22,880 nt of DNA from a virus: the IMG/VR virus record IMGVR_UViG_3300002835_001160, positions 1-22,880 of that record; one strand, written 5' to 3'. The translations under genes and the position numbers were made by a program. This document shows, piece after piece, positions 2,135-18,728 of the stretch. Positions within the stretch are counted from its first letter, which is position 1, and every line of letters starts with the position of its first letter. The notes beneath the pieces are model-generated. The model was not told where the DNA came from. It worked only from the letters and a program-made list of their open reading frames with translations, and did no database searches.

Positions 2135-2544
2135 ACATCGCCGTACTGGCTCTGGACTCAGTTGACCCTCGTGATCTGCTGGCGATCCGTTGCCGCATGA
2201 CCAGGGCGGACAGCGAATGGCAGGCAGAGGTGTCCGACGTATTGCGGGGCGAAGCCAGCAGCATCACGCCGGTGGCGTTGTGCCATCGTGATGGCGGGCT
2301 TGTCGGCTGGTCTTGCTCGCACGTCTGGCGTGACACGCAGACGCTGGAGCAGTGGGTGGACGAGAAATGGCGTTGCCGTGGTATAGCCTCGGCGCTATCA
2401 AGTGCCCTGATTGCCCATGGCACGCTGGACCGTGGGAAGCCGATTGCCGTGTTCAGCGAGCCGACCCATACGATTGCCGTCCGCCTCGGGTTTGACGACG
2501 TGCGTCACTACCGACGAGACGGTGCCGACTGGGTGCAAGTCTGA
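2131..2544 (+). CDS. GNAT-family N-acetyltransferase
   Basis: A 137-residue protein with the acetyl-CoA binding motif of GNAT enzymes: a beta strand, then RCRGIASAL near residues 81-89 (the R/Q-x-x-G-x-G/A loop), followed by a helix. Near the C terminus, TIAVRLGFDDVRHYRR matches the conserved stretch in which an aromatic Gly-Phe pair follows the acetyl-CoA pocket. Members transfer an acetyl group to amines of small molecules, proteins or sugars; the substrate cannot be read from sequence. The start is chosen at the ATGA overlap with the terminase stop; a longer in-frame reading from 1954 would run deep inside the terminase gene. Sitting between terminase and the head-joining gene is unusual, and this looks like an accessory gene carried in the packaging operon. 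The domain call is fairly secure, the role unknown. Confidence 0.78.
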   Translation: MNIAVLALDSVDPRDLLAIRCRMTRADSEWQAEVSDVLRGEASSITPVALCHRDGGLVGWSCSHVWRDTQTLEQWVDEKWRCRGIASALSSALIAHGTLDRGKPIAVFSEPTHTIAVRLGFDDVRHYRRDGADWVQV

Positions 2545-2587
2545 CGCCACACCCCCTCTCGTCTGCCGTGACTCGCCCGTAGTTTCG
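2541..2587 (+). promoter_or_regulatory. copy A of a bipartite intergenic motif (possible late promoter)
   Basis: CTGACGCCACACCCCCTC at 2541-2558 is followed after 19 bases by CGTAGTTT at 2578-2585. The same two blocks with the same 19-base gap occur at 17116-17160. Here the motif overlaps the stop codon of the acetyltransferase gene and ends 7 bases before the gpW-like ATG, which has no clear Shine-Dalgarno sequence. It does not fit a sigma-70 promoter. A phage-specific or activator-dependent late promoter, an RNA processing site, or a recombination boundary are all possible. Confidence 0.45.
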
Positions 2588-2592
2588 TCCCA

Positions 2593-2805
2593 ATGAGCGA
2601 CGAACTGCGGGACAAGATCTCCGAGGTTGCGCAAGGCCCGAAGCGTGTCCGTACGGACGCGGGCGAGGTCGAGGCGCAGGACATCGGCGACATGATCGAG
2701 GCCGACAAGTATTTGTCGGGCAAGTCTGCCGTCTCGCAGACGTCGACCAGGAAGAACCGTGGGCTGCGGTTTAACCGGTTGATTCCTCCGGGTGGCGGCT
2801 CCTGA
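2593..2805 (+). CDS. gpW-like head-tail joining protein
   Basis: A 70-residue protein in the place where lambda carries gpW, between large terminase and portal. Its layout resembles gpW: a short N-terminal helix (ELRDKISEVAQG), a beta hairpin of charged residues (KRVRTDAGEVEAQ), a second helix (IGDMIEADKYL), and a basic, flexible tail ending in RLIPPGGGS. gpW plugs the portal after packaging so that the tail connector can bind. The identification rests on size, position and pattern, not a strict motif; other small head-completion families are possible. The stop and portal start overlap as TGATG. The start codon follows copy A of the repeated bipartite motif almost immediately. Confidence 0.6.
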   Translation: MSDELRDKISEVAQGPKRVRTDAGEVEAQDIGDMIEADKYLSGKSAVSQTSTRKNRGLRFNRLIPPGGGS

Positions 2806-4253
2806 TGGGCCTGTTCGGCGCATTCTTTCGCGGCAAGCGGCAGCTACAGCCTGTGGCCATGCCGCTGCGCGTGCGTGCCCGCTACGACGCCGCCAGCGAA
2901 GGCGACGACCGCAAGCATTGGGCCAACGCCGATGCGTTTGCTGCGGATACGGCGCTCTCGCCGATGGTGCGTCGGCAGATCCGCAACCGCGCCCGCTACG
3001 AACGTGCAAACAACTCGTATCTCGCCGGGATTGTTGAGACGCGGTCAAACGATTTGGTCGGCACCGGCCCACGGCTGCAACTCGACACGGGCTCGCCTGA
3101 CGTCGACCGGCAGGTGGAACGACTGCTGTTCGATTGGTCGTGGTCAATCGACCTGCCCGGCAAGCTGCGGACGATGGCGGATGCCAAGACCATCGACGGC
3201 GAAGCGTTCGCCTTGATGATCTCGAATCCACGTCTGCCGGGCGTGCAGCTTGACCTGCGGCTGGTCGAAGCCGAGATGGTCGCCACGCCGACTGAGCTGA
3301 TGTCGCAAACGGTGACGCCCGACGGCAGCACGGTGGACGGCTTGGAGTTCGACGCCGTCGGCAACGTCGTGGCGTACCAAGTGCTCAACTACCACCCCGG
3401 CGCGAATCATCGCGTCAACACGTTTGAGTTCCAGCGTGTTCCGGCGTCGCAGATGGTGCATTGGTTCAGGGCACAACGTGCCGGCCAGCATCGTGGAATC
3501 TCCGAAGTCGCACCGTCGCTCAAGCTCTTTGGGCAGCTTCGCCGGTACACCGAGGCAGTGTGTGCGGCTGCGGAAACGGCTGCGGATTTCGCCGGATTTC
3601 TGCGAACGAACAGCCCGGCGGCGGAAATCGACGAAGTCGATGCGTTCGCCGAAATGGAGATCCAAAAGCGTGCGATGGTCACGCTGCCCGACGGCTGGAC
3701 TTTCGAGCAGCTCAAGGCGGAGCAACCGACGTCAACCTACGCGATGTTCAAGCGCGAGATCGTCAACGAGATGGCGCGTTGCCTGCAGATGCCGTTCAAC
3801 GTCGCTGCGTTGGATTCATCGTCATACAACTACGCCAGCGGGCGGATGGATCATCAGGTCTACGACAAGACCCTGCGTGTCATGCGTGACGAGGTCGAGC
3901 GTGTGATGCTCGACCGCGTCTTCTCCGCGTGGGTCAACGAAGCCACGCTTGCCGGCATCCTGCCCGACGGTCTCCCGCCCTTCTCCGAGTGGAACTGGGC
4001 GTGGGTATGGGACGGCAAAGACCACGTCGACCCGGCGAAGGAAGCCAACGCCGCCGAGACGAGGTTGCGGACGCACACGACCACGCTTGCTGCCGAATAC
4101 GCCAAGGCCGGCAAGCAGTGGGACGTCGAACTGCGTCAGCGTGCCGCCGAGATCGCGCTGATGAAGGAACTCGGTATCTGGGTTGATCTCACGCCGGAAG
4201 TGAACTACGGCGGAACGCTCGATGAGAACGGCGAACCAATGGGGGCGCAATGA
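2805..4253 (+). CDS. phage portal protein, lambda family
   Basis: This 482-residue protein forms the ring at the special capsid vertex through which DNA enters and leaves. The N-terminal part contains the family pattern RARYERANNSYLAGIVETR followed by NDLVGTGPRLQ, near residues 61-91. The middle holds the stretch KREIVNEMARCLQMPFNVAA, followed by SSSYNYASGRMDHQVYDK, near residues 310-350, which is highly typical of lambda gpB-type portals. Length fits the family. It starts in a TGATG overlap with the gpW-like gene and ends in an ATGA overlap with the protease/capsid gene, so all three are probably translated from one message. Confidence 0.92.
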   Translation: MGLFGAFFRGKRQLQPVAMPLRVRARYDAASEGDDRKHWANADAFAADTALSPMVRRQIRNRARYERANNSYLAGIVETRSNDLVGTGPRLQLDTGSPDVDRQVERLLFDWSWSIDLPGKLRTMADAKTIDGEAFALMISNPRLPGVQLDLRLVEAEMVATPTELMSQTVTPDGSTVDGLEFDAVGNVVAYQVLNYHPGANHRVNTFEFQRVPASQMVHWFRAQRAGQHRGISEVAPSLKLFGQLRRYTEAVCAAAETAADFAGFLRTNSPAAEIDEVDAFAEMEIQKRAMVTLPDGWTFEQLKAEQPTSTYAMFKREIVNEMARCLQMPFNVAALDSSSYNYASGRMDHQVYDKTLRVMRDEVERVMLDRVFSAWVNEATLAGILPDGLPPFSEWNWAWVWDGKDHVDPAKEANAAETRLRTHTTTLAAEYAKAGKQWDVELRQRAAEIALMKELGIWVDLTPEVNYGGTLDENGEPMGAQ

Positions 4254-6121
4254 ACGCACTCAAGCTTGATTCAGGCGTCACGTTTCTGCAGGCCGCCGAA
4301 GGCGATTCAGCGCCGGCTGGCAAGAAGTTTCGCATCGTCGCGTACACGGGTGCCCAAATCCGACAGGGCTGGAGCCGCGAGCCGGTAGTGATCGACATGG
4401 CTGGCATGCAGCTGCCGGCGACTGTGCCTGTGGTGCTGGGGCACGACTACTCGCTCGGGTCGATCCTCGGGCAAGGCCGCCCGTTCATCGAGGCCGGGCA
4501 GTTGATCGTGGAAGGCGAGATCCTCGCCAGCAATGGCAACGCTGACCAGGTCGCGGCACTCGCTGCGGCGGGCTACCAGTTTCAGGCGAGCGTCGGCGCC
4601 GATGTTCGTCGGCACCAGAAGTTTGATGCCGATGCCGCCGCAACCGTCAACGGGGCAACCCACGTCGGGCCGCTCCGAGTCGTCAAAGCCTCCAGTCTGC
4701 GGGAGGTTTCGTTCGTAACTCTTGGCGCTGATTCGCAGACCAGCGTCGCCATTGCCGCCGAAGAGGTGGCAGAGGAGTCTCCTATGGCGCACGACGCCAA
4801 CTCGACGCCCGACCAGGCTACTGCCAAGTCGGAAGCCCCGGCGATTGTCGCCGGCGGTGCTCCCATCAACGAAACGCTGCCGGTCAACGCCAAGGGCGGC
4901 GACGGTGCCAGCCTGGGCGACAACCAGCCCGCGATGGATGCTCTGCGTAAGCAGATCGTCGCTGACATCCGTGCCGAGTTCCTCGGCGTGGCTCGCAGCG
5001 AGCGGCCTGCCGCTCCAGCGGTTCATGTCGTCGCCAACGTGGCGCCGACCGCCGAGGTGATCGAAGCGTCTTTTGCCCTTCAGGGCAGCCTGCCCGGTGT
5101 GGAATCCCAGTACGACGCGAAGGTGCTCGAAGCGGCCCACAAGGCGCGGCGGGAGCTTTCGCTCGGCGAGGTGATCGTGCAGGCGGCCGTGGCCAACGGT
5201 TACGACGGGGCGCGTCGGCTCAACGCCGCCACGCTGCGTCCGATCCTGGCTGCCGCGTGGGCGACCCACTCCATCAGCGGCATCCTGAGCAACACCGCCA
5301 ACAAGTTCCTCTTGGCCGGATTCAACGGCGTGGAGAGCGCGTGGCGGTCGATCAGCACGGTGCGTTCGGTCAACGACTTCAAGACGTTGACGAGCTACCG
5401 GCTCAACGGCGGCTTCAAGTTCGACAAGGTCGCCAACGGTGGCGAACTCAAGAACGCTTCCGCCAGCGAGGAAAGCCGGACGATCAGCGCCGAGACCTAC
5501 GGCATCATGACTTCCGTCACCCGTACGGATCTGATCAACGATGACCTCGGTGCCCTGACCGCTGTTCCGCAGCGGATCGGCCGTGGTGGTGCGTTGAAGT
5601 TGAATGACGTTTTCTGGGCCGACTTCGTGGACGATGCGTCGTTCTTCACGAGCGGCCGTGGCAACCTGTCTGCGGGATCGCTGGCGCTGTCGCTTGCGAA
5701 CCTCAAGGCGCTGGCCACGAAGTTCAGGAAGCTCAAGGATCCCGACGGCAACCCCGTCGCGGTCGAGCCGCGGATTCTGCTCGTGCCGGTCGATCTGGAG
5801 CTCGCCGCTGCCGAGATCATGGGCTCGACCCTGATCCAGAGCGGTGCAACCGGCGGCCAGCCGGATCGGAACGTGCTCGCCGGTCGGTATCAGGTGGTCG
5901 CATCGACCTACCTGACCAACACGACCGATTACTACCTCCTCGCCTCGCCGGCCGACATGCCGGTGATGGAGGTGGCGTTTTTGAACGGCGTGCAGAGCCC
6001 GATCGTCGAGACGGCGGAAGCCGACTTCAACACGCTCGGCGTGCAGATGCGTGGGTATTTCGACTTTGGCGTGGCCAAGGCCGAGTACCTCGCCGGCGTG
6101 AAGTGCGATTCGGCTACGTGA
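4250..6121 (+). CDS. prohead protease / major capsid protein fusion
   Basis: One 623-residue frame contains two usually separate proteins. Residues about 25-165 resemble an HK97-type prohead protease: a conserved His in VVLGHDYS (His 65), a Ser in YQFQASVGA (Ser 114), and the late strand LREVSFVTLGA (about 150-160). Residues about 170-270 are Ala/Pro/Glu rich and could act as scaffold or delta domain. Residues about 270-623 form the capsid shell part; the final stretch with NGVQSPIVETAEADFNTLGV and MRGYFDFGVAKAEYLAGV is typical of major capsid proteins in such fusions. Self-cleavage during maturation is expected. An internal ATG at 4784 with a strong ribosome binding site could also make a 445-residue capsid-only product. 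Fused forms are known in phages, so the call is secure; the cleavage point is not visible. Confidence 0.88.
   Translation: MNALKLDSGVTFLQAAEGDSAPAGKKFRIVAYTGAQIRQGWSREPVVIDMAGMQLPATVPVVLGHDYSLGSILGQGRPFIEAGQLIVEGEILASNGNADQVAALAAAGYQFQASVGADVRRHQKFDADAAATVNGATHVGPLRVVKASSLREVSFVTLGADSQTSVAIAAEEVAEESPMAHDANSTPDQATAKSEAPAIVAGGAPINETLPVNAKGGDGASLGDNQPAMDALRKQIVADIRAEFLGVARSERPAAPAVHVVANVAPTAEVIEASFALQGSLPGVESQYDAKVLEAAHKARRELSLGEVIVQAAVANGYDGARRLNAATLRPILAAAWATHSISGILSNTANKFLLAGFNGVESAWRSISTVRSVNDFKTLTSYRLNGGFKFDKVANGGELKNASASEESRTISAETYGIMTSVTRTDLINDDLGALTAVPQRIGRGGALKLNDVFWADFVDDASFFTSGRGNLSAGSLALSLANLKALATKFRKLKDPDGNPVAVEPRILLVPVDLELAAAEIMGSTLIQSGATGGQPDRNVLAGRYQVVASTYLTNTTDYYLLASPADMPVMEVAFLNGVQSPIVETAEADFNTLGVQMRGYFDFGVAKAEYLAGVKCDSAT
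4772..4786 (+). promoter_or_regulatory. internal in-frame ribosome binding site and ATG in the protease/capsid gene
   Basis: GAGGAG at 4772-4777 stands 6 bases before an ATG at 4784 that is in frame (codon 179) with the protease/capsid fusion. It lies exactly at the junction after the protease domain. Initiation here would give a 445-residue protein made of the linker plus the capsid domain, much like lambda Nu3 starting inside gene C. Confidence 0.55.
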
Positions 6122-6196: not shown

Positions 6197-6514
6197 ATGG
6201 CTTCTTATGTTCAGGACGGTGCTCTGCTCAACCACACGCCCGGATCTGCCGTGGCGGCTGGCGAGGTGGTCGTGATCGGCTCGCTCGTGGCGGTTGCTCC
6301 GCGTCCCATCGCCGCCAACGCGCTCGGCTCGTTGGCGATCGAAGGCGTGTGGGCTATGCCGTGTGCTACCGGTGCGACCGGCGCGCAGGGCTCCGCGATC
6401 AACTGGTATGCGACGTCGGGTGTGGCGCACGCCACGACCGGCACCGCTGCCGGCAAGCTCGCCAAGGCTCGGCTGGCCGACGACACCGAAGTGCATGTCG
6501 TTATCAACAAGTAA
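6197..6514 (+). CDS. capsid decoration (cement) protein, DUF2190-like
   Basis: A 105-residue protein right after the capsid gene. The pattern is that of DUF2190-type cement proteins: DGALLNHTPGSAVAAGEVVVIGSLVAVA at the N terminus, a middle segment EGVWAMP, and a C terminus with AAGKLAKARLADDTEVHVVIN. Such proteins bind the outside of the expanded capsid and stabilise it against internal DNA pressure, comparable to lambda gpD in role. GAGGTG at 6186-6191, 5 bases before the ATG, is a good ribosome binding site. The gene is bracketed by two strong hairpins, which fits a separately tuned, abundant message. Confidence 0.75.
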   Translation: MASYVQDGALLNHTPGSAVAAGEVVVIGSLVAVAPRPIAANALGSLAIEGVWAMPCATGATGAQGSAINWYATSGVAHATTGTAAGKLAKARLADDTEVHVVINK

Positions 6515-6531
6515 TCCGGCCCACCTGCAAG

Positions 6532-6572
6532 CCCCCGGCGGCGGCGTTTCACCCTTTCCGCCCCGCCGGGGG
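6532..6572. terminator. 10-bp GC-rich hairpin after the decoration gene
   Basis: CCCCCGGCGG at 6532-6541 pairs perfectly with CCGCCGGGGG at 6563-6572, with a 21-base loop. TCTTGT follows on the + strand, only a weak U-rich tail. It sits between the decoration gene stop and the head-closure gene and may be a partial terminator or RNA-stability element. Confidence 0.45.
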
Positions 6573-6598
6573 TCTTGTGGACTCAGGAGACTCCCTCC

Positions 6599-7288
6599 GT
6601 GGCCGACTTGCTGCGCTCAGGTGCCGCTTGGCTGACAGACCGGCTCGTTGAGTCGGCGGCAGTTCCATGCACCTACATTCGCGGCAACACGTCCACCCAG
6701 ATCACGGCGTGCATTGGGCGGTCGATGTTTGAGTCGGCGACGCAGTCTGGCGTGGTCGAACAGTGGGAAAGCCGCGACTACATCGTAAAAGTCGGCACGT
6801 TGCCATATGCGGAGCCAGATCGAGGCGACCGCATCGTCGAGACCTACGGCAACGTATCGACAACCTATGACGTCTCGGCTCCACGCGGCGTGCCACTCTG
6901 GCACTACGCTGACGCTTTTCGCACGAGCGTAAAGATTCACACCGTGGCGGCTTCCGAGAGCGCGGCTGTGCCGGGCACGCTGCTGGCCAGGGCGGCCGGC
7001 ACGTTCGCCGGTGCAACGATCACCGACGGACAGATCACGTCTTCGCTCACGGTGGATCTGGCGACCAACCGTGCATTGACTCGCACGCTGACGCCGTCCG
7101 CGGCGTATGTCTACATTGTGCTGCCGACGTCCTACGGCTCGCCGACGCTCAAGGTCAACGGCATCGTGTCAACGGCGTGGGAAACCACACAGCGGTCAAT
7201 CACGTTCACGGGTCAGGTGGCGCGATCCTACACGATCTACCGTTCTACGTACGCGGTTACGGGCACGCTCAACCTTGAGGTGGCGTGA
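6599..7288 (+). CDS. head-tail joining / head-closure protein with extra C-terminal beta domain
   Basis: The start chosen is GTG at 6599, with AGGAG at 6585-6589 nine bases upstream, giving 229 residues; an in-frame TTG at 6575 lacks this support. Residues 1-115 look like a gpFII-type head-closure protein: a helix (LLRSGAAWLTDRLVESA), an SH3-like beta set with RDYIVKVGTLPYAEPDRGDRI, and a late TSVKIHTV. Residues about 125-229 form a separate beta-rich region (ITDGQITSSLTVDL, YVYIVLPTSYGSPTLKVNG, YTIYRSTYAVTG) of the kind seen at the ends of phage fibre and structural proteins. The fusion suggests that the neck ring displays an exposed domain. The stop overlaps the next ATG as TGATG. Confidence 0.6.
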   Translation: MADLLRSGAAWLTDRLVESAAVPCTYIRGNTSTQITACIGRSMFESATQSGVVEQWESRDYIVKVGTLPYAEPDRGDRIVETYGNVSTTYDVSAPRGVPLWHYADAFRTSVKIHTVAASESAAVPGTLLARAAGTFAGATITDGQITSSLTVDLATNRALTRTLTPSAAYVYIVLPTSYGSPTLKVNGIVSTAWETTQRSITFTGQVARSYTIYRSTYAVTGTLNLEVA

Positions 7289-8409
7289 TGGCAGAGATCA
7301 AAGGCCAGAACGTCATCGCGCCGGTCGTGCCGTTTTCAACAACGGATGCGTACCCGTCGCATCTTGCACAGTACGGAAAAGGTGGCTTGCGGAGCGTGGT
7401 TACGCTCGAGGAGCGTGACGCTATCCCGGCCTTGCGCCGAGAGGCTGGGATGCTCGTGTACGTGGCGAGCGGAGACGCCTATTACCAGTTGGAATCTGAC
7501 CTCACCTCCTGGTCATCGTTTGCGATCCAAGGACCAACGGGGCCGGCGGGCGTGGCGGGGGCCGCAGGCCAGGCTGGCGTAACAGGTAGCACGGGCGCGG
7601 CGGGAGTGGCCGGAGAGGCAGGAAGCACGGGGCCTACAGGAAGCGTGGGACCGGCGGGGCCGCATGGGTCTGTTGGAGCAGCTGGCGAGCAGGGCGCAAC
7701 CGGCCCGCAGGGCGAGGTCGGCCCTACCGGCCCACAGGGCGTGGCTGGGTCCGCAGGCGTTGCCGGAGTAACCGGCCCGCAGGGTTTGCAGGGAGTTGCC
7801 GGAGAGCGAGGAGATACAGGCCCAGCCGGCGAATCAATCGTCGGGCCTACCGGCGAACGAGGTGCGACCGGAGAACGCGGCGACACTGGCCCTGCTTCGA
7901 CTGTGCCGGGGCCAACCGGCCCTTTCGGCGCATCAGTAGTTGGGCCTACCGGCGAGGCTGGCCAATCCATTGTCGGCCCTACTGGCGAGCGCGGAGCAAC
8001 CGGCGAGCGCGGCGACACGGGACCAGCCGGCCAATCTATCACGGGTCCAACGGGCGAGGCCGGTCAGTCAATCGTCGGGCCTACCGGTGCCGCGGGCAGT
8101 GTAGGTGCCACCGGCAGTCGCGGAGATACGGGGCCAGCAGGCGCCGCCTCGACAGTTACAGGGCCTACTGGCGCGGCGTCGACTGTGCCCGGACCGACTG
8201 GCAGTACCGGGCCAAGTGTGACAGGCCCGCAAGGCACAGCCGGAAGCCTTGAGTTCTACATTACCGGCCCGACCGCGCCAGCGTCTGGAGGCACGGGCTC
8301 GCTCTGGTTTGACGACTCTTCGGGACGGTTGTTCTTCCGCACGTCAGGGCTGTGGGTGGAAGTCGCTCCACGGCAGCCGCTCACGCTCAACTGGCTGGAT
8401 CTTGGGTGA
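7288..8409 (+). CDS. collagen-like phage fibre protein 1
   Basis: A 373-residue fibre. Residues 1-80 form an N-terminal anchor common in phage fibres, with VVPFSTTDAYPSHLAQYGKG and then ERDAIPALRREAGMLVYVASGDAYYQL. Residues 82-319 are collagen-like Gly-X-Y repeats with eleven GPTG units and short interruptions such as ESIV, QSIV, ASTV. Residues 320-373 form a small C-terminal cap with SLWFDDSSGRLFFRTSGLWVEV, probably the trimerisation or tip domain. Such proteins usually make triple-helical rods. A GTG three bases upstream is also in frame; the ATG is preferred because it forms the TGATG overlap with the previous stop. Its position next to head-closure genes rather than after the tape measure leaves open whether it attaches to neck, capsid or tail. 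Confidence 0.85.
   Translation: MAEIKGQNVIAPVVPFSTTDAYPSHLAQYGKGGLRSVVTLEERDAIPALRREAGMLVYVASGDAYYQLESDLTSWSSFAIQGPTGPAGVAGAAGQAGVTGSTGAAGVAGEAGSTGPTGSVGPAGPHGSVGAAGEQGATGPQGEVGPTGPQGVAGSAGVAGVTGPQGLQGVAGERGDTGPAGESIVGPTGERGATGERGDTGPASTVPGPTGPFGASVVGPTGEAGQSIVGPTGERGATGERGDTGPAGQSITGPTGEAGQSIVGPTGAAGSVGATGSRGDTGPAGAASTVTGPTGAASTVPGPTGSTGPSVTGPQGTAGSLEFYITGPTAPASGGTGSLWFDDSSGRLFFRTSGLWVEVAPRQPLTLNWLDLG
7531..8244 (+). repeat. Gly-X-Y collagen-like repeat region 1
   Basis: About 80 triplets, mostly [12 protein letters not shown] and GDT, broken at intervals by two- to four-residue inserts (SIV, STV, SVV). The 18-residue unit GPTGERGATGERGDTGPA occurs twice, at 7843-7896 and 7975-8028, identical in protein but with synonymous changes in 12 of 18 codons. 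Confidence 0.85.
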
Positions 8410-9619: not shown

Positions 9620-10003
9620 ATGGCAAATCCCAACATCGTCAACGCCACCGCAATCTATGCCGGGTCCACTGGCATTCGGCTATTGCCAACCGGCACCAAC
9701 ACGATCATTTCCAACGCCTCCAGCAGCGGCAAAGTCTTTTTTGTCGAGACGCTGGTCGTCGCCAACACTGACACCACGGATGCGGTCGACGTGACGGTGA
9801 CGGCGTGGAACAACGCAACGCCCGGCGCGACAGGTGCCACTGGCGTGGCGATTGCGTCGACCATCACCGTGCCGGCGAAAGCGTCGCTGGTGGTCATCTC
9901 AAAGGACGCAACGCAGAATCTGATGGAGAACCAGAGCATCAGCGCGACGCCTGGCACGGCTGGCAAGCTCGACATCAGCTGCGATTACAAGGAAATCTCC
10001 TAA
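9620..10003 (+). CDS. small beta-rich phage structural protein
   Basis: A 127-residue protein with a good ribosome binding site (AGGAG at 9610-9614). It is nearly all predicted beta strands: IYAGSTGIRLLPTGTNTIIS, SSGKVFFVETLVVANTDTTD, VTVTAWN, TITVPAKASLVVISKDATQNL, LDISCDYKEIS. Proteins of this type sit next to fibre genes in a range of phages and look like small jelly-roll or Ig-like virion parts. The mid-section has a brief collagen-like ATPGATGATG. Function is not known; a decoration or fibre-collar role is an inference from position. The stop overlaps the next start as TAATG. Confidence 0.6.
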   Translation: MANPNIVNATAIYAGSTGIRLLPTGTNTIISNASSSGKVFFVETLVVANTDTTDAVDVTVTAWNNATPGATGATGVAIASTITVPAKASLVVISKDATQNLMENQSISATPGTAGKLDISCDYKEIS

Positions 10004-11694
10004 TGCGCGACCGAAGGGGCGGATTTATCGGCAGCGCCACGGGGCCGGCAGCAGCCGGCTCCAACTCTGCGGCCAGCGGCATTTGGACGCTGCGCGAGGC
10101 CGAGTCGCTCAAACGGGCTGGGACGTGGCCCGCAACTTTTTACGATCCGACCAGCATCACCGGCCTGCAACTCTGGCTCGACGCCTCCGACGCCCAAACG
10201 CTGTACGACGCTACGTCTGGCGGATCGCTTGTGGCGGCGGATGGCGGCGTGGCGCGATGGGAGGACAAGTCGGGCAACGCGCGACACTTCACGCAGTCTA
10301 CGAGCGGCAGCAGGCCGGCGCGGAAGACAAGTCAGCAAAACGGAAAGGACACGTTGCTATTTGCCGCTGGCGCTGGGGCTAGTCGCGGCGATGATATCTT
10401 GATCGGTTCCGATTTTGGCGATTACTTGCAGTCAAGCCAAGCGGTAACCGTGTTTGCTGTGCTCAAGACGCTCACTACAGGCGTGCGACACGAGATAATT
10501 AACAAACAGGACGCAGCTGGCGGATGGCGGTTTCTTGTCGAGAGTGACAATAAAGCGAATTTGTTTTTCGACAATGACAATGCAAGCCGTACAACAGTAG
10601 CCACTACAGGCACGGTTTCTTTGAGTTCCTATGCGGTTTTGGCGTTCAATGCGTCTGGTGGTTCTTTATCCTCGGCCGCCATCTACCGAAATGGAACATC
10701 GCTGGCAGTGTCCGCGTCCGGTTCAGTTCAAAGCGTGTCCGACAACTCTGCCTCCGTTGAGATTGGCGGCGCAACATCCGCAGGGATTGTGTACGACTCG
10801 TTGGATGGCAACATAGCTGAAATCATCATGTACGACTCTGCGCTCAGTAGCACCGACCGCGCCGCAGTGGAGAGCTACCTGATCGCCAAGTGGGGGATCG
10901 CGCCTGCCCCTGTCCCCCAGACGATTGCTGGCCTTCAACTCTGGCTTGACGCCTCCGACGCCAGCACACTTTACGACGCGACCACCGGCGGCTCGCTCGT
11001 CGCGGCGGATGGCGGCGTAGCGAGGTGGGAAGACAAATCTGGCAACGCGAGACACGCTACGCAGGGCACCAGCGCGAATCGGCCAGCGAGGAAGACGGCA
11101 GTGCAGGGCGGCAAGGACGTGCTGCGGTTTGATGGGAGCAATGACTCTCTATCTATCCCAAGCAGCACGGAGACGTTTAAGTTTTTGCACAGTGCCGATA
11201 GCACAGTGTTTGTAGTGCTTACGCGATCCACAACAGACAACAGCGCCATTATTGATAATTGCGACGACGGTAGCTCAGCAGTCGGTTTTTCGTTGCGCTT
11301 CTTAGATGGCTCTGGCACTAGCGACGTACTGGTTCACCGAATAAGGCGCGGCGTTTCTGCAACCTCTGCTTTATCCAATGTTTCCGCAAACGGGTTTATG
11401 CCGTCTGGCTGGAGCGTGCTGTCATCGGTCGGCAGGCCAGGAAATGCAACCGCGTCCAATCGTTCTTCCATGCGGCTTAACTCTGGCACAGCAGTTACAA
11501 ACAACACTGATACAAACGCTGTTTCAACAAGCAATGCTGCAAATGATTTGTGTATTGGAAGGTTTGTAACGAGCCCGAGCGCCAACACACATGGCGGCGA
11601 CATCGCCGAAATCATCATCTACAACTCTGCACTCTCCGACACCGACCGCGCCGCAGTGGAGAGCTACCTGATCGCCAAGTGGGGGATCGCATGA
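10003..11694 (+). CDS. tandem LamG/concanavalin-like lectin-domain virion protein
   Basis: A 563-residue protein with two copies of a lectin-like beta-sandwich domain. A short N-terminal attachment segment (GIWTLREAESLKRAGTWP, about 27-44) resembles those of phage fibres. Domain 1 spans about 52-300 and domain 2 about 306-563; both open with GLQLWLDASDA, then DGGVARWEDKSGNARH, and both end with [17 protein letters not shown]. This fold usually binds polysaccharide or glycan, so a host-surface binding role is likely. The ends of the two copies are nearly identical even in DNA, while their cores differ and are AT-richer than neighbouring sequence. The start is the ATG in the TAATG overlap; a longer frame upstream to 9805 would only overlap the previous gene. 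It ends in an ATGA overlap. Confidence 0.78.
   Translation: MRDRRGGFIGSATGPAAAGSNSAASGIWTLREAESLKRAGTWPATFYDPTSITGLQLWLDASDAQTLYDATSGGSLVAADGGVARWEDKSGNARHFTQSTSGSRPARKTSQQNGKDTLLFAAGAGASRGDDILIGSDFGDYLQSSQAVTVFAVLKTLTTGVRHEIINKQDAAGGWRFLVESDNKANLFFDNDNASRTTVATTGTVSLSSYAVLAFNASGGSLSSAAIYRNGTSLAVSASGSVQSVSDNSASVEIGGATSAGIVYDSLDGNIAEIIMYDSALSSTDRAAVESYLIAKWGIAPAPVPQTIAGLQLWLDASDASTLYDATTGGSLVAADGGVARWEDKSGNARHATQGTSANRPARKTAVQGGKDVLRFDGSNDSLSIPSSTETFKFLHSADSTVFVVLTRSTTDNSAIIDNCDDGSSAVGFSLRFLDGSGTSDVLVHRIRRGVSATSALSNVSANGFMPSGWSVLSSVGRPGNATASNRSSMRLNSGTAVTNNTDTNAVSTSNAANDLCIGRFVTSPSANTHGGDIAEIIIYNSALSDTDRAAVESYLIAKWGIA
10851..10901 (+). repeat. 51-bp direct repeat, copy 1 (end of lectin domain 1)
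   Basis: These 51 bases are identical to 11640-11690. They encode the [17 protein letters not shown] end of the first lectin-like domain. Perfect nucleotide identity, including third codon positions, indicates a recent duplication or gene conversion. Confidence 0.9.
11640..11690 (+). repeat. 51-bp direct repeat, copy 2 (end of lectin domain 2)
   Basis: Second copy of the repeat at 10851-10901, encoding the C-terminal end of the second lectin-like domain, directly before the ATGA start of the next gene. Confidence 0.9.
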
Positions 11695-11835: not shown

Positions 11836-12501
11836 ATGCCGTTCTTTAGCCTGCCATCCGGCGCGTCGCCGATCTTCGCCGGTCCCACTGCGCCAACCGG
11901 CGGCGTCGGCCAGGTCGGCGATCTTTTTATCGTCAAAGGACCGACCGGTGCTGGCCTGCTCTATGGCCCGAAGGATGCCGTCAGCGGGTGGCAGGAACCG
12001 ATTAATTTTGCCCTTGCTCCGACTGGAAATACGGGAGCAACCGGCAGCACAGGCCCGACCGGCGCTGCCTCTACCGTGACCGGCCCGACCGGAAGCACTG
12101 GCCCAAGCGTGACTGGCCCGACCGGCGCTGCGTCTACGATCACAGGCCCTACCGGGTTCACCGGCCCAAGCGTGACAGGCCCTACGGGGGCTACTGGGGC
12201 TGCGTCAAATGTCACTGGCCCAACGGGCAATACGGGCTCTACCGGAGCGTCTATTACTGGCCCGACCGGTGCGGCATCGACTGTGACAGGCCCGACGGGC
12301 GCTACAGGTCCGCTTGGTCCTGTTGGCAGCACTGGGCCAGAAGGCGGCCCAACTGGCCCCACGGGATCGACAGGCCCTGCTGGCGCTGATGGCTTTGTTG
12401 GAAGTAATGGGGCGACCGGCCCGACTGGTCCATCAGGCGGCCCGACCGGCCCGACAGGCCCCGCTGCGTCTGCCATCGGCCTGATCCTCGCACTCTCATG
12501 A
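11836..12501 (+). CDS. collagen-like phage fibre protein 2
   Basis: A 221-residue protein. Residues 1-60 form an anchor with [21 protein letters not shown] and [13 protein letters not shown], a common head of phage collagen-like fibres. Residues about 61-210 are Gly-X-Y repeats dominated by GPT, GST and GAT, with regular inserts of the form [10 protein letters not shown] and PSVTGPTG. It ends with a short hydrophobic tail, [12 protein letters not shown], instead of a folded tip domain. It shares insert types with the collagen-like protein encoded at 7288-8409, suggesting common descent or matched assembly. Threonine density in GPT triplets is striking and makes it a candidate substrate for the glycosyltransferases that follow. 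The stop overlaps the next start as ATGA. Confidence 0.82.
12016..12465 (+). repeat. Gly-X-Y collagen-like repeat region 2
   Basis: About 50 triplets with more than ten GPTG units and recurring inserts of STVTGPTG or SVTGPTG type. On the opposite strand the same codons give an open Pro/Val-rich shadow frame. Confidence 0.82.
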
Positions 12502-13562
12502 TCGACCACCTGTCAGCGATCATCCAGCACGCCTACTACTGTGGCGAGCTTGATGCCGGCCGCCGTGCGTGCGAGCGTGCGCTGTCGCTGCCTCCAGTCG
12601 AAACCGTGGAGGAAACCATTCGCGCAAACCGCACGTGGTACACGGAGCCGCTCGCCGGCCTCGTTGATGTGTCGTTTCAGCGGTTCGACATTGAGCCAGC
12701 GTACGAAGGCTGGTCGCTCTTCAACCCGTCCATCATGGCCCACGAGGGCCGTCTACTCGCTGTCGTGCGCAGCAGTAACTATCGAATCGTCAATGGCCAG
12801 TACGTGATGCCCGACGCAGACGCTGGCGTCATCCGCACGGCAAACATCCTGTGCGACGTTGACGCTGCCATGGGCGTCAGCAACGCCCGCACCATTGCCG
12901 ACGTCGCCTACCGCAAGAGCGGCTATCCGGTCGACGGGTTTGAAGACTGCCGCCTACGGCATACCCAAACTGGTATAGGCGTGTCTGCGACCGTGCGAAA
13001 CATCGCCGGGCTCGACGGGCGTTGCCGTATTGCCACTGCGGATCTGGACGTCGAGTCGGCCACGTTGTCGAACATGAAGGTCATGACCGGCGTCAGCCCG
13101 CAGGACCACGAAAAGAACTGGATGCCGTGGCAACGGGGCTGGGCCTATTCGTGCAGCCACGACGGGCACGTCGTGACGGTAGAGCCAGACCCGGAACTCG
13201 ACGGCGGGTGGCAACTGTGCCAGCGGTCAACATCGCCGCCGATTGCTAGGGCATTCCGCGGCGGCTCGCAGCTCGTGCCGTTCCACGACGGCTGGCTCTG
13301 CCTGGTCCACGAGGTGGCGTGGCTCGGTGACAGGCGGGCGTACGAGCACCGGTTCGTCTGGTTTGACACGCACATGACAATCGCACGGGTGTCGCCGCCT
13401 TTCGCGTTTCGGGAAACGCAGGCGATCGAGTTTGCCGCCGGGCTCGCGCAGCTAGGCGACGATCTCTACGCGACGTTCGGCGTGAGGGACGCCGAGGCGT
13501 GGATGGCTCGCGTGGATGCGGATGACGTATGGCGACTCTTGTCACCGGCTACGTGCGGCTAG
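12498..13562 (+). CDS. GH130-like five-bladed propeller protein (glycoside phosphorylase/glycosidase-like)
   Basis: A 354-residue protein. Residues about 5-35 ([19 protein letters not shown]) resemble one TPR unit. From about 55 onward the pattern is that of beta-propeller enzymes related to GH130 mannoside phosphorylases: [19 protein letters not shown] (73-91), [11 protein letters not shown] (144-154), HEKNWMPW near 205-212, then [20 protein letters not shown]. Each blade repeats an acidic or aromatic strand pair. Such proteins often occur with glycosyltransferases in surface-polysaccharide clusters, and the activity of this subgroup is uncertain; it may trim, transfer or simply bind sugar. 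It is the first of four overlapping carbohydrate genes. The next gene starts inside its last 34 bases. Confidence 0.6.
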
Positions 13563-14224
13563 ACAGCGGGCATAGGGCACACTCTCGGTATGTCGGCCTC
13601 GGCCGCAGGCTCCTTGACCTGTGCCTGCCGACTGTTGCGTTTTACGACGGCGACCCGGCACCGTTCGATCCGCCCACGCAAACAGAAATCCGGCCAGCCC
13701 GATTGGATTTGTGCTGGCTCTATCAGGCGTCACGTACAGCCAGCCAGCCGCCGGGGCGGTCAGACAAAGACACGGTCAATTACTGCGTCGTCCAGCACCA
13801 AAAAAGCCTATGGCTGGCGGATGCCGCGCGCATCGCCGGCAGTCACGTGGTGTGGATTGATTTCGGGATTTTTCACCTCACCGACGTCAAAGAGCGGCAC
13901 GTGCAGCAGCTGCTGGCGAAGGTCGAGCAGTCACCTCCTGACAGAATCACGCTTCCGGGGATCTGGCCGCTTGACGGTCGCCCTACGATCAACTTTTTGT
14001 CGCCAGCGTGGTACGTGGCTGGGGGCGTGGTCGTCATGCCGCCACGACTGGCGGACTGGTTCCACGAGACTGCCATGTGCTACGCCACGCTGCAGCTAGA
14101 GCAAAGCGGCAGAACAACGTGGGAAGTCAACACGTGGTCTGCGATTTATCGTGACCACCCAGAGAAGTTCCACGTGTATCAAGCTGACCACAACGCCACG
14201 CTCTTCACGGGATACCTGTCGTGA
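13529..14224 (+). CDS. HtrL/YibB-like putative glycosyltransferase
   Basis: A 231-residue protein with the opening pattern [29 protein letters not shown] and the middle VVQHQKSLWLADAARI followed by HVVWIDFGIFHL (about 106-117). This acidic WID-x-Gly pattern after a Lys-Ser helix is what I know from HtrL/YibB-type proteins, thought to be GT-A-fold sugar transferases found in lipopolysaccharide clusters; activity is mostly unproven in the family. Further on, FLSPAWYVAGGVVVMPP fits an acceptor-side loop. It overlaps the upstream propeller gene by 34 bases and the next gene by GTGA. The family match is by pattern from memory, so moderate confidence. Confidence 0.55.
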   Translation: MATLVTGYVRLDSGHRAHSRYVGLGRRLLDLCLPTVAFYDGDPAPFDPPTQTEIRPARLDLCWLYQASRTASQPPGRSDKDTVNYCVVQHQKSLWLADAARIAGSHVVWIDFGIFHLTDVKERHVQQLLAKVEQSPPDRITLPGIWPLDGRPTINFLSPAWYVAGGVVVMPPRLADWFHETAMCYATLQLEQSGRTTWEVNTWSAIYRDHPEKFHVYQADHNATLFTGYLS

Positions 14225-14976
14225 GAATTTCGGCGATTGTCACCACCTATCGACGCTTCTGGAAGTGCTGCAGGGCAATCGACTCGATCCTTGCACAGAC
14301 GCATCCTGTAGACGAGGTGGTGGTTGTCGATAATGGCTCGCCGGAACCAGAGTATCACTCGCTGCATGACCGCTACGCGGATACTGCGGTGCCAATCACC
14401 GTTGTGCGGCTGTCACGTGGCACGCACACGCAGGAACCACTGCGCGACGACGCCGGGCGGGAAATTTCCATCGCGTGTCGAGACACCACAAACGTCGGAT
14501 TTTGCCTCGCGCGTGGCGACTGGTTCGCGATGTGCCACGATGACGACGAGTGGATGCCACACCGCATCGAGCGGCAAGTGCAGGCAATGCAGCGGCATCC
14601 AGAATGCCTGCTTTTTAATGCCAGCATCATCAACAGAACCGAAGACGGTTGCGTTCACGGCATACACCACGACTACTACGGGCCGCACGGAGTGCAAGCG
14701 TCAGAAGGCGTGACAGACGTGACTGGGTGCGTGCCGCACTTCAACCCGATGGCAGTGTCAGCCCTGCTTTTCTCCAGAAAGCTGACAGACGCGCTCGGCG
14801 GGTGGCAGCACTGGGTGCCAGACGATCTTGGCATGGCTATGCGACGGCTGGCGGCGAGTGACTGGGATTTCTACCGGCGTGCTGCCACTACAACGCGACT
14901 GCTACGCCTAGACGAGCCGCTTGTCTACTACGAAGTCGGCAACGTCAAGCACGAGGGGCATATGAGCTATGCCTAA
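14221..14976 (+). CDS. family 2 glycosyltransferase
   Basis: A 251-residue GT-A-fold enzyme starting at GTG 14221 in a GTGA overlap. The nucleotide-sugar half is clear: SAIVTTYRRF (4-13), DEVVVVDNGSP (31-41), TTNVGFCLARGDW (89-101) and the acidic metal-binding cluster CHDDDEWMPHRI (105-116). The C-terminal half has HFNPMAVSALLFSRKLTDALGGW, a typical acceptor-side segment, and ends with the helix SDWDFYRRAA. Family 2 members add a sugar from UDP-, GDP- or TDP-sugar to a growing glycan, lipid or protein; donor and acceptor are unknown. There is no membrane segment, so it should act in the cytoplasm, as expected for modifying virion proteins before or during assembly. Confidence 0.85.
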   Translation: MRISAIVTTYRRFWKCCRAIDSILAQTHPVDEVVVVDNGSPEPEYHSLHDRYADTAVPITVVRLSRGTHTQEPLRDDAGREISIACRDTTNVGFCLARGDWFAMCHDDDEWMPHRIERQVQAMQRHPECLLFNASIINRTEDGCVHGIHHDYYGPHGVQASEGVTDVTGCVPHFNPMAVSALLFSRKLTDALGGWQHWVPDDLGMAMRRLAASDWDFYRRAATTTRLLRLDEPLVYYEVGNVKHEGHMSYA

Positions 14977-16027
14977 AGTCGGCATTTACGCTCTGGCACA
15001 AAACGAGGCAAAGCACGCCGCCGCGTGGGCGGAATCATGTGCGGATGCCGATGTGCGGGTAGTGACCGACACGGGCTCGACCGACGGCACGCAGGGTATC
15101 CTCGTGCAACAGGGTGTGACGGTGTGCAACGGGTACGTCTGCCCGTGGCGTTGGGACGACGCCCACAACCTGAGCCTCAACCACCTGCCGCCCGACATCG
15201 ACATCGCCATCCGGCTGGATCTGGACGAGCGAATCCTGCCCGGCTGGCGGGAGGCTGTCGAAAGAGCGTGGACGGGCGATGTGAACAACCTCCGCTACCG
15301 CTACGCCTGGTCGCTCAAGCCAGACGGGTCTCCGGGTCTGGTCTTCTACTGCGACCGGGTGCATGCCAGGCATGGCTTTCGGTGGGCGCAGGCAACGCAC
15401 GAGGGGCTGATGTGCTGGACGGGAGACAAAGTGCAGGCAATCGCCGAGGGGCTTGAGGTCCACCACCACCGCGAGCCCGGCAAGGTCCACAAATCCGACC
15501 TGACGCTATTGCGGGTGGCGGTTCGAGAGGCACCAGGAGACGCTCGTGCCCAGTGGTATCTGGCACGTGAGATGAGCTACGCCGGGCTGCCCGAAGCCGC
15601 TGCGGAGTTCTTGGCGTATCTCAAGATGCCAGGCGGGCAGGCGACGGAGCGTGCCTACGCCCGCCGGTATCTCTATCTTGTGACGCAGGACGAGCGGCAG
15701 CTGCACCAGGCGACCGAGGAATGCCCCGGAGAGCCTGACGCTTGGGAGGCGTTGTCGCTGGCCCGCTACCGCCAGCAGCGGTGGCAGGAGTGCTACGAGT
15801 TCGCCACGCGAGCTATAGAGGCAGGCGACCCCGGCACCCATGCCACAGACCCTGATGCCAAAGGCCGGGCGTATGACCTCGCCAGCGTCTCTGCGTGGGA
15901 GCTAGGCAAACGTCCCGAAGCCCTCACGTTGGCACGGCAGGCGGCGACAATGCTGCCGGCGGACGTTCGCATACGGCAAAACGTCGCCGCCATGGAGCGA
16001 CATACCGATGGCTTCGTATCTGCGTGA
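14969..16027 (+). CDS. family 2 glycosyltransferase with TPR-like C-terminal region
   Basis: A 352-residue protein. Residues 1-180 form a GT-A domain: YALAQNEAKHAAAW (7-20), VVTDTGSTDGTQGI (31-44) and the acidic LDLDER (83-88) where the metal and sugar donor bind, then HGFRWAQATHEGL and the sugar-site histidines in LEVHHHREPGK. Residues about 185-345 are helical pairs of TPR type (APGDARAQWYLAREMSYAGL, EPDAWEALSLARYRQQRW, SVSAWELGKRPEALTLARQA). GT2-TPR proteins include SunS-like enzymes that glycosylate peptides, where the TPR part holds the protein acceptor. That makes a protein substrate plausible here. It overlaps the neighbours by 8 and 20 bases. Confidence 0.8.
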   Translation: MPKVGIYALAQNEAKHAAAWAESCADADVRVVTDTGSTDGTQGILVQQGVTVCNGYVCPWRWDDAHNLSLNHLPPDIDIAIRLDLDERILPGWREAVERAWTGDVNNLRYRYAWSLKPDGSPGLVFYCDRVHARHGFRWAQATHEGLMCWTGDKVQAIAEGLEVHHHREPGKVHKSDLTLLRVAVREAPGDARAQWYLAREMSYAGLPEAAAEFLAYLKMPGGQATERAYARRYLYLVTQDERQLHQATEECPGEPDAWEALSLARYRQQRWQECYEFATRAIEAGDPGTHATDPDAKGRAYDLASVSAWELGKRPEALTLARQAATMLPADVRIRQNVAAMERHTDGFVSA

Positions 16028-16475
16028 GATCGCCCAAGGCGTAGCCGATGGCCTGGACGCCGCCACGTTCGCCTCTGTGGCCACGCAGCCTACGGTGGAG
16101 CGTCGCAACTGGGCTCGGGTCGATGCGGCTGACATGGCCGATCCGGTGGTGTTTGTGACGCCCGGCCAGGCCGACACACAACGCATCAGCCGGGGCGTGA
16201 CGCAGGTCGACTACCAGGTACTCGTCTACATCGGCCGGCGTGTGGAGACTGAGGCAGACGCCGACGACATGCTGGATCTCGCCGACGAGATCCTGCTGTA
16301 TGTCCGGGCGCACTCATGGGGCGAGCAGGTGCAGTTTCCAGAAGACGTCACAAGCCCGCAGACGGTGTCGATTGCAATCAACCCTGACGACGCCCTGAAT
16401 GAGCGTAACGTGTGGCGGGCTGTCATCACGGCGAGCTACCGGGTGTTTCAGGCGGACGAACTGCCGGAGGCGTAG
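16008..16475 (+). CDS. tail terminator / gpU-like tail completion protein
   Basis: A 155-residue protein with the feel of the minor tail protein U family: an N-terminal helix (LREIAQGVADGLDAA), strands VVFVTPGQADTQRISRGV and VDYQVLVYIGRRV, a helix of acidic residues (ADADDMLDLADEILLYV), then beta strands ending in ITASYRVFQADELPEA. Such proteins cap the finished tail tube and bind the head connector. It is the first structural gene after the sugar island, so the usual order head closure, neck, tail terminator is interrupted only by that island. The family call is by layout and position. Confidence 0.6.
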   Translation: MASYLREIAQGVADGLDAATFASVATQPTVERRNWARVDAADMADPVVFVTPGQADTQRISRGVTQVDYQVLVYIGRRVETEADADDMLDLADEILLYVRAHSWGEQVQFPEDVTSPQTVSIAINPDDALNERNVWRAVITASYRVFQADELPEA

Positions 16476-17119
16476 TGGCACGCTTCAAGGGCAAGACCAA
16501 GTTCAACTGGGACAAGCCGGGGCTCAAGCGGCTCGTCGGCGAAGCAGCCGCCAAGGCACTGCAAAACGCCGGCATGGACTGCCGCAGGTCGGTGCAGCGG
16601 CAGATGGTTGGCAGCTCGACTCCCAGCGGTCGCCGGCCGCGAAAGAATCCGGTCTTTCGGCAGTACGGCACGAAGGACGGCATTCCGCTGGTTGGGGCTA
16701 TCTACCGCGTCGCCAGGGAAGACAAAGTTTCGTCATGGGCGCCGATGGCGTTCCTGCGAAACGACATACAAACGGATTACGACAACACCACCAAGTCAGT
16801 GGTCATCGGCCCGTCAAAAGAGCCGTGGATCAACCAGTTGCATGAGTTCGGCGGCACGGTACATGTGTACGTCAACCACGGCCAGTACCCGTCGAAGACG
16901 TTCAGACGCCGCAAGCTGCCACGAAGTCTGCAGGGGAAAAACGGTGCGTACGTGGGCATGCTGTCCAACGTGCCGTACGGGACAAACAGCACGTACATCG
17001 GCACCCGCAGCGTCAACGGGCGCGGCTACATGGAGATCGGGCTGCAAGCCATGATCCACCGCATTCCGAGACAGTTTCAGGACACCATCCGCAGCAGCGG
17101 TGGAAGTCTCGGACGCTGA
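16475..17119 (+). CDS. HK97 gp10 / gpZ-like neck or tail-completion protein
   Basis: The start taken is GTG at 16475 overlapping the previous TAG, giving 214 residues; an earlier in-frame ATG at 16412 would extend into the tail terminator gene. The protein begins with a very basic stretch (RFKGKTKFNWDKPGLKRL), then an Ala-rich helix, a loop with STPSGRRPRKNPVFR, and a strand set KSVVIGPSKEPWINQLHEFGG (about 108-128) that is a hallmark of gp10/gpZ-like proteins, which join connector and tail. The C terminus has a basic, Gly/Arg-rich middle (SKTFRRRKLPR) and a final helix. The stop codon lies inside copy B of the bipartite motif. Confidence 0.55.
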   Translation: MARFKGKTKFNWDKPGLKRLVGEAAAKALQNAGMDCRRSVQRQMVGSSTPSGRRPRKNPVFRQYGTKDGIPLVGAIYRVAREDKVSSWAPMAFLRNDIQTDYDNTTKSVVIGPSKEPWINQLHEFGGTVHVYVNHGQYPSKTFRRRKLPRSLQGKNGAYVGMLSNVPYGTNSTYIGTRSVNGRGYMEIGLQAMIHRIPRQFQDTIRSSGGSLGR

Positions 17120-17162
17120 CGCCACACCCCCTCAAGGAACGCTGTTGGCAGTCGTAGTTTGG
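17116..17162 (+). promoter_or_regulatory. copy B of the bipartite intergenic motif (possible late promoter)
   Basis: CTGACGCCACACCCCCTC at 17116-17133, a 19-base gap, then CGTAGTTT at 17153-17160, identical in both blocks and spacing to 2541-2585. As at copy A, it overlaps the stop codon of the gene before it. It lies 30 bases before the first tail-tube-like gene, which here has a strong ribosome binding site (GGAGG at 17176-17180). Confidence 0.45.
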
Positions 17163-17190
17163 CGACATCCCCCCCGGAGGATCGCCAGAC

Positions 17191-17517
17191 ATGCCTTTTA
17201 CCATCGTGCTCGGCAAAGACGTCACCATCTCTGGTGTCGCAAATGCCCGCAGCGTCACCGTCTCGTCCAGTGCGTCGGAAATCGACGTCACCAAGTTCGG
17301 CGACACGGCTCGGAAGTTTCGCCGAGGCTTGATTGAGCAGACCGTCGAGGTCGAGTGCATCGATTCCCCCGGCGTGTCTGCCGGCGGCACGTTCACTCTC
17401 GGCGGCACCGAGACCGGCGATGTGACGTACGTCGTCACGAGCGTCGCCCAAGACCAGCCGCTCGACGACATCATCACTTTCTCCGTTTCTGCCCGCCGCG
17501 TCACCGGCCCAGCCTAA
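17191..17517 (+). CDS. tail-tube-like protein A
   Basis: A 108-residue beta-rich protein, first of three tandem paralogues. It opens with FTIVLGKDVTISGV, has FRRGLIEQTVEVECID in the middle and closes with VTSVAQDQPLDDIITFSVSARRV. The same three pieces, in the same order, recur in the gene at 17842. The pattern of strands and a central loop resembles small tail-tube proteins. It follows the bipartite motif and a strong ribosome binding site, which suggests heavy expression, as needed for a major tail protein. Confidence 0.6.
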   Translation: MPFTIVLGKDVTISGVANARSVTVSSSASEIDVTKFGDTARKFRRGLIEQTVEVECIDSPGVSAGGTFTLGGTETGDVTYVVTSVAQDQPLDDIITFSVSARRVTGPA

Positions 17518-18192: not shown

Positions 18193-18728
18193 GAGAGTTC
18201 CGAGACGATCAGGGTAGGCCGTGGCAGGTGGCGTTGACTGTCGCAGCAGCCATGAGGGTGAAGGATGCAGTCACGGTGGAAGTCGACGGCGAGAAAAAGC
18301 CGTTTGACCTGGTCGACGTTGCCAGCATCTCGCAGACGATGCAGGTGCTGCGTGGGCAATACACCACGATTGCAGAGACGCTCTACGCCATCCTGCAGCG
18401 GCAAGTCGCCGACAAGAAGCTGACCAAGGAGGATTTCCTTGACGGCCTGCGTGGCGATGCACTCGACGCTGCGGCGAAGGTACTTGAGCAGGAGCTAGTC
18501 GATTTTTTCCCGCTCCGGCTGCGACGAATGGTCGGCCTGCTCGCAGCCAAGATGGACGAGGCAACGACGGAACTGCTGCAACGGGCCGAGGAAGCGATGG
18601 CAGCGGCGACGACGAGCGACCTGCTTGCTCAGTCTGGAATGCCATCTGGGCAGCCGCAGGCATCATCGGCGTCTACCCAGGAGAGTGGACCTTCCGACAA
18701 CTCGCCGCAGCCCGCGATGGCCGCTTAG
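18189..18728 (+). CDS. tail assembly chaperone, gpG-like
   Basis: A 179-residue protein starting at GTG 18189 in a GTGA overlap; an earlier in-frame ATG at 18147 would overlap the tail-tube gene. It sits between tail tube and tape measure, the place of lambda gpG. The N-terminal half is a small beta/alpha domain (REFRDDQGRPWQVALTVAAA, then VDGEKKPFDLVDVAS), followed by helices to about residue 148 (ATTELLQRAEEAMAAATTSDLL). The last 30 residues (from GMPSGQPQASSASTQ) are low-complexity and look as though the true message has moved to another frame. gpG coats the tape measure during tail assembly and helps set tail length. Confidence 0.65.
   Translation: MREFRDDQGRPWQVALTVAAAMRVKDAVTVEVDGEKKPFDLVDVASISQTMQVLRGQYTTIAETLYAILQRQVADKKLTKEDFLDGLRGDALDAAAKVLEQELVDFFPLRLRRMVGLLAAKMDEATTELLQRAEEAMAAATTSDLLAQSGMPSGQPQASSASTQESGPSDNSPQPAMAA
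18503..18509 (+). other. candidate slippery heptamer for -1 frameshift
   Basis: T TTT TTC at 18503-18509 fits the X XXY YYZ rule in the gpG-like frame (GAT TTT TTC). It is the only canonical heptamer I found in the second half of that gene. A -1 shift here enters a frame open to TGA at 18896. Codon use suggests the visible switch of coding frame is later, near 18617-18635, so the actual site is unsettled. Confidence 0.4.

Follow-up and report, generated by a model that had tools for sequence, protein, structure and literature searches.

The window analysed here, a 22.9-kb IMG/VR virus record, carries two copies of a bipartite DNA element, one immediately before the head genes and one before the tail-tube genes, and each copy is very probably, on the strength of its sequence, a late promoter of the phage group to which the virus belongs. 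The sequence, spacing, position, strand and conservation of the element are observed. This phage group is large, uncultured and mostly freshwater, and near-complete relatives have three or four such sites each.

The repeated element in the window

Direct reading of the window placed the 18-mer CTGACGCCACACCCCCTC at 2541-2558 and again at 17116-17133, followed in both places, after a 19-nt gap, by CGTAGTTT, which ends at 2585 and 17160, respectively. With up to three mismatches allowed, the 18-mer had exactly two matches in the window against a shuffle mean of 0.01, and the bipartite pattern had two against none in the shuffles. A position-weight scan trained on the relatives returned the same two sites with a score of 24.5 and no further site in the window, the next best score being 12.5 compared with 12.3 in the reversed control. 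Each copy of block 1 shares bases with the stop codon (TGA) of the gene before it, namely 2542-2544 for the gene at 2131-2544 (site A) and 17117-17119 for the gene at 16475-17119 (site B). Comparison with relatives narrows the conserved units to [GC]CA[CT]ACCC..T[CG] and [TG]ANNNT with 20-22 nt between them; both window copies read [GC]CA[CT]ACCC..T[CG], 21 nt and TAGTTT, an arrangement expected by chance near zero times. The longer identity between the two copies beyond these units is partly lineage-specific. The features concerned, all on the + strand, are as follows.

2547..2558, +: block 1 of site A (CCACACCCCCTC), putative activator site at about -46 to -35; the conserved stretch in the window runs from 2541
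2559..2579, +: site A spacer of 21 nt, variable in sequence and fixed in length (21-22 nt among relatives)
2580..2585, +: putative -10 element TAGTTT of site A, 7 nt before the ATG at 2593; T1, A2 and T6 invariant among relatives
~2592-2593, +: predicted leaderless mRNA start of site A, from the hexamer-ATG spacing, the lack of a Shine-Dalgarno (SD) sequence and the TANNNT rule of PMC3160421
2593..2805, +: first gene of the head operon, a 70-aa protein in the gpW position (no Pfam match), then portal and capsid
2805-4253, +: portal, lambda family (Pfam, 8.7e-59)
4250-6121, +: capsid (PF25209, 1.1e-38)
17122..17133, +: block 1 of site B (CCACACCCCCTC); the conserved stretch runs from 17116
17134..17154, +: site B spacer of 21 nt, unrelated in sequence to that of site A
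17155..17160, +: putative -10 element TAGTTT of site B; predicted mRNA start at ~17167
17161..17190, +: site B leader region, with GGAGG at 17176-17180 inside a predicted hairpin at 17161-17186
17191..17517, +: tail-tube-like protein, first gene after site B (PHROG 'major tail protein', E 3e-4)

Two more tail-tube-like genes come after the last of these. An earlier sequence-only reading of this DNA had described a repeat with identical 19-base spacing whose copies overlap the stop codon of the preceding gene and stand before a key structural block, and the direct read, the mismatch scans against shuffles, the two TGA codons and the genes downstream bear it out on each point. The gap sequences of the two sites proved unrelated when both copies were read, so that its further claim, that this is not a simple duplicated segment, also holds.

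The late region of the window also encodes collagen-like proteins of Gly-X-Y repeats, as well as one containing two diverged copies (75-88% alike) of a LamG-like unit, at 7288-8409, 11836-12501 and 10003-11694, beside glycosyltransferase-like genes at 12498-16027; a part in adhesion or capsid decoration is likely for the collagen-like and LamG-like proteins.

Conservation and placement among relatives

An exact pattern search yielded six further contigs with near-identical flanks, and a looser one gave 17 records, in each of which the motif precedes a gpW-like or tail-tube gene except for L018, set aside as a chance pattern match without late context. The relatives were also sought independently of the motif, using the 70-aa gpW-like protein after site A as the query; 80 of the 189 relatives were taken as loci, and in nearly all distinct sequences the block pair lies within 75 bases upstream of the gpW-like ATG. 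Using the protein after site B as the query, 29 loci were obtained, again with the element upstream. The box occurs in two types, CCA[CT]ACCCCCT[CG] (CC-type) and GCA[CT]ACCCGGTC (GG-type). The pattern GGCAYACCCGGTC-N21-TANNNT gave at least 120 matches in viral contigs; the 79 that were read among those listed were classed by script as 33 A sites, 8 B sites and 38 others, the latter representing 27 distinct sequences, 26 of which read as B sites while L236 alone is neither A nor B.

The conservation of the A sites is partly due to common descent, which weakens it as support for the promoter reading. Two loci (L012 and L015) have an unrelated upstream region, yet their element is unchanged, and the position of the window's gene at 2131-2544 is filled in relatives by a GNAT acetyltransferase, a small membrane-like protein or no gene, with the predicted promoter after it staying in place, a retention that speaks for the promoter reading. 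This gene, between the terminase and site A, is interchangeable among relatives. A chromosomal repeat or host regulon was rejected as an origin of the motif, the CC-type pattern in genome contigs amounting to one unrelated Prevotellaceae match that is not before a late gene. Blastn of site A returned no known phage relatives, portal identity to the best listed cultured phages is below 30%, and literature searches of open-licence papers produced no earlier description of the element in this phage group.

Genome context was taken from 16 relatives fetched in tiles. The sites in near-complete relatives are all on the late strand and before genes, in the following places.

Site A, late strand: before the gpW-like, portal and capsid genes (head)
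Site D, late strand: before a mid-late gene whose product starts MxxFSLLPGQLDVTFV
Site B, late strand: before the tail tube gene
Site C, late strand: before a far-late operon

A relaxed regular expression detected all four sites in G025 and G028, and A, D and B in G026, for which a weaker C was added by the weight-matrix scan; relaxed matches inside genes are mostly GAnnnT forms, as chance would give. The close relative G002, which has site B in common with the window, carries site C at 18454, 11.6 kb after its own B, and the matching position falls beyond the window's end. In this relative (L149:18454-18620), CCCTAGTCTGGCGGCATG is followed about 100-110 nt on by GCCCTACTCTGGCGGCATG, each directly before a start codon, and the pair probably represents tandem C promoters.

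Block 2, predicted transcript starts and leaders

When sites were anchored on block 1 alone, 163 non-redundant matches were obtained, of which 44 have TAnnnT beginning 21 nt further on and 9 have it at 22 nt; every other offset has 0-2, save offset 0, where the nine cases are the TAG directly after GGTC in B and C sites. The columns that never vary across 19 diverse sites are C2, A3, A5, C8 and T11 in block 1 and T1, A2 and T6 in block 2, positions 3-5 of the latter being free (TAGCGT, TACCGT, TAGTTT, TAGTCT, TATCGT, TAATCT and others). As read from these alignments, this profile of variation is that of a sigma70 -10 hexamer, and if the hexamer occupies -12 to -7, block 1 would lie at about -45 to -34. 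No TTGACA-TATAAT pair was found in the window between 2000 and 18000, against 2.8 expected in shuffles; near the integrase of G002 there are two weak TTGACA/TATAAT pairs against 0.4 expected.

Further observations count against the promoter reading. The hexamers of D sites, and of site B in distant relatives, begin with G (GACAAT, GACACT, GAAACT, GATCTT), and G at position 1 of a -10 element is unusual. Furthermore, two A-site sequences (L099 and L111) keep block 1 and are without TAnnnT. Almost abutting the ATG of the gpW-like gene, these two have a perfect hairpin, CCTCCAC-GCATT-GTGGAGG, in place of the -10 region, which may show how a leaderless start turns into something else.

Leaderless genes have been described as marked by TANNNT some 12 nt ahead of the start codon, and TAGCGT is among the hexamers of the documented leaderless genes of S. 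coelicolor (PMC3160421); in mycobacteria the main promoter form is TANNNT with no -35 motif (PMC3898074). At sites A and C, 6-9 nt separate the end of the hexamer from the ATG and an SD is lacking, which would be the signature of leaderless mRNA, predicted on this ground for both sites. An SD-like 4-mer was present in none of 37 non-redundant leaderless-type sites compared with 511 of 817 genes of these phages, a share somewhat inflated by the small bonus that the gene calls gave to SD sequences; complementary 4-mers were present in 101 of the 817. The leaderless-type pattern itself had 22 matches in 17 genomes and none in the reversed control. Sites B and D, by comparison, have 20-47 nt from hexamer to start codon and hence leaders. 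In most relatives the site B leader contains a hairpin, which the prediction would place at the 5' end or close to it, and the hairpin of the window (17161-17186) has a predicted folding energy of -12.5 kcal/mol with the full stretch. GG-type phages (L194, L229 and L249, for example) have a nearly invariant site B leader, GAGCGAACCAGCCGCACCGCTGGCACTCGC, with a CCAGC/GCTGG hairpin after the -10 box; the hairpin of the window's site B differs from theirs and holds the SD. The site B leader possibly stabilises the mRNA of the tail-tube gene or controls its translation.

Proposed mechanism, activator and known systems

In the mechanism proposed, TAnnnT (GAnnnT at some sites in relatives) would serve as the -10 element melted by the host sigma70-type RNA polymerase; there being no -35 hexamer, block 1 would be the site for an activator, probably phage-encoded, which would compensate for the lack of a -35 and for a weak -10. 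The presence of an activator on block 1 is rather likely, though less assured than the promoter assignment itself. The three or four copies would start the late operons in turn: A the head, D the mid-late gene, B the tail tube and C the far-late operon. The start point at A and C would coincide with the start codon, giving leaderless mRNAs, while B and D would give leaders with ribosome-binding sites. The bases expected to be essential for promoter activity are CCACACCC together with T1, A2 and T6 of TAGTTT, and not the gap sequence. Transcription from the element, polymerase reading block 2, a protein binding block 1 and late timing are all inferred from sequence conservation. The sequence-only reading had suggested a late promoter or two-contact protein site, for which the -10 signature and the placement of block 1 at the position of a class-II-type activator or a -35 replacement now argue, and the conservation of blocks and spacing before structural modules, once looked for, was strongly positive.

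An alternative sigma factor, of phage or host, might instead, unaided by any activator, read block 1 as an unusual -35 across a long spacer. A spacing tolerance of 1 nt between two fixed contact blocks would fit a holoenzyme; however, none of 12 phage genomes has a sigma domain-2 match (PF04542), which bears on a phage-encoded factor and not on one of the host, the 20-22 nt from block 1 to the -10 exceed the usual 16-18 nt, and block 2 has an ordinary sigma70 -10 profile, so that this explanation is unlikely. Still less probable is an RNA element serving the processing, antitermination or translational control of a read-through late transcript. The sites do overlap stop codons and stand just before start codons, all on the coding strand, but the 19 diverse sites show no conserved fold and no covariation, no Rfam family matches, block 2 shows the conservation pattern of a -10 hexamer, and the sites stand 6-9 nt from the start codon at A and C but 20-47 nt from it at B and D; the RNA processing site that the earlier reading had also entertained is disfavoured on the first two of these counts. 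Its other suggestion, a module-exchange boundary (or a duplicated segment at a recombination hot spot) with no regulatory role, draws on the swapping of the gene upstream of site A while the motif stays, and is scarcely credible given that the gap is unrelated between copies and varies at fixed length, the -10 core persists around variable inner bases, sites A and C retain the 6-9 nt to the ATG, and the element occupies up to four different places per genome in the same orientation.

With no TTGACA/TATAAT pair between 2000 and 18000 of the window, and neither sigma domain 2 nor a Mor/C family protein (PF08765) in the 12 genomes, host polymerase acting on a -10-only promoter with an activator would be the most economical arrangement. 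The best activator candidate is a protein of about 100 aa with a GcrA-like helix-turn-helix (HTH), whose gene lies directly after that of the phage beta clamp in nine genomes. It scores against the GcrA family with E values of 1e-5 to 8e-4, below the cut-off, in 5 of 12 genomes, and matches the GcrA DNA-binding domain with an E value of 0.009. In the AlphaFold model of the protein, high confidence is largely confined to the HTH, and the model has no significant PDB match; most copies end in a conserved aromatic tail, YSWDGFRFxG. As its recognition-helix residues do not track the CC or GG box subtype, the protein stays only a candidate and was rejected as the specificity factor. It is improbable, to much the same degree as the RNA element, that this protein binds block 1, contacts host sigma70 and, through the clamp, ties late and partly leaderless transcription to replication. 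A LexA-like phage protein was likewise rejected as the specificity factor, the copies from G029 (GG-type box) and G002 (CC-type box) being 88% identical, as was a domain linking the HTH candidate to proteins of the distant relatives G007, G017 and G024, which came down to an 18-column match. The same three encode proteins that look CsrA-like by eye (MLCLSRKESESLVLPG...), at 6348-6584 (L143), 36285-36521 (L147) and 27167-27469 (L133), respectively.

For this large, uncultured and mostly freshwater phage family, its size being gauged from the 189 relatives found for the gpW-like protein and from at least 120 contig stretches matching one form of the motif, the element maps the late operons at sequence level. 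It predicts exact transcript starts, as well as head-gene mRNAs that are leaderless, both checkable in lake metatranscriptomes, and the search for a new late activator is narrowed to a few small early genes. Since the box is so conserved, it should also be of use in recognising late modules, and in putting them in order, where viral contigs are fragmented.

Among known systems, the C-activated late promoters of phage Mu (Plys, PI, PP and Pmom) are comparable in that several late promoters have a common upstream activator site and non-consensus -35 and -10 elements, the C site lying upstream of or overlapping the -35 region (PMC4461284). The likeness, a conserved box apparently replacing a good -35 at several late operons, is one of position and repetition only; unlike Mu, the 12 genomes lack a Mor/C family protein, the box sequence differs as far as it is comparable, and first genes would be leaderless here. 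The TANNNT leaderless promoters of high-GC bacteria are alike in having TAnnnT 6-9 nt before the start, no SD and a free middle (PMC3160421, PMC3898074), but they have no conserved upstream box, whereas here a 12-nt box is always present at a fixed distance and marks only late phage operons. The late promoters of T4 (gp55/gp33/gp45 sliding clamp) resemble those proposed here in the -10-only core recognition at late genes (PMC2988020), and a sliding clamp is encoded by these phages too. T4 uses an 8-bp TATA box, in contrast to a TAnnnT -10 plus an upstream sequence box, and, unlike in T4, no sigma domain-2 (gp55-like) protein was found in the 12 genomes. In lambda PRM, finally, the activator is placed at the edge of the -35, the -10 is weak and the cI mRNA is leaderless; this promoter serves a single repressor gene from a dyad operator in a lysogenic role. 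The element described here would share with it the activator beside a poor -35, the weak -10 and the leaderless transcript, its role being late.
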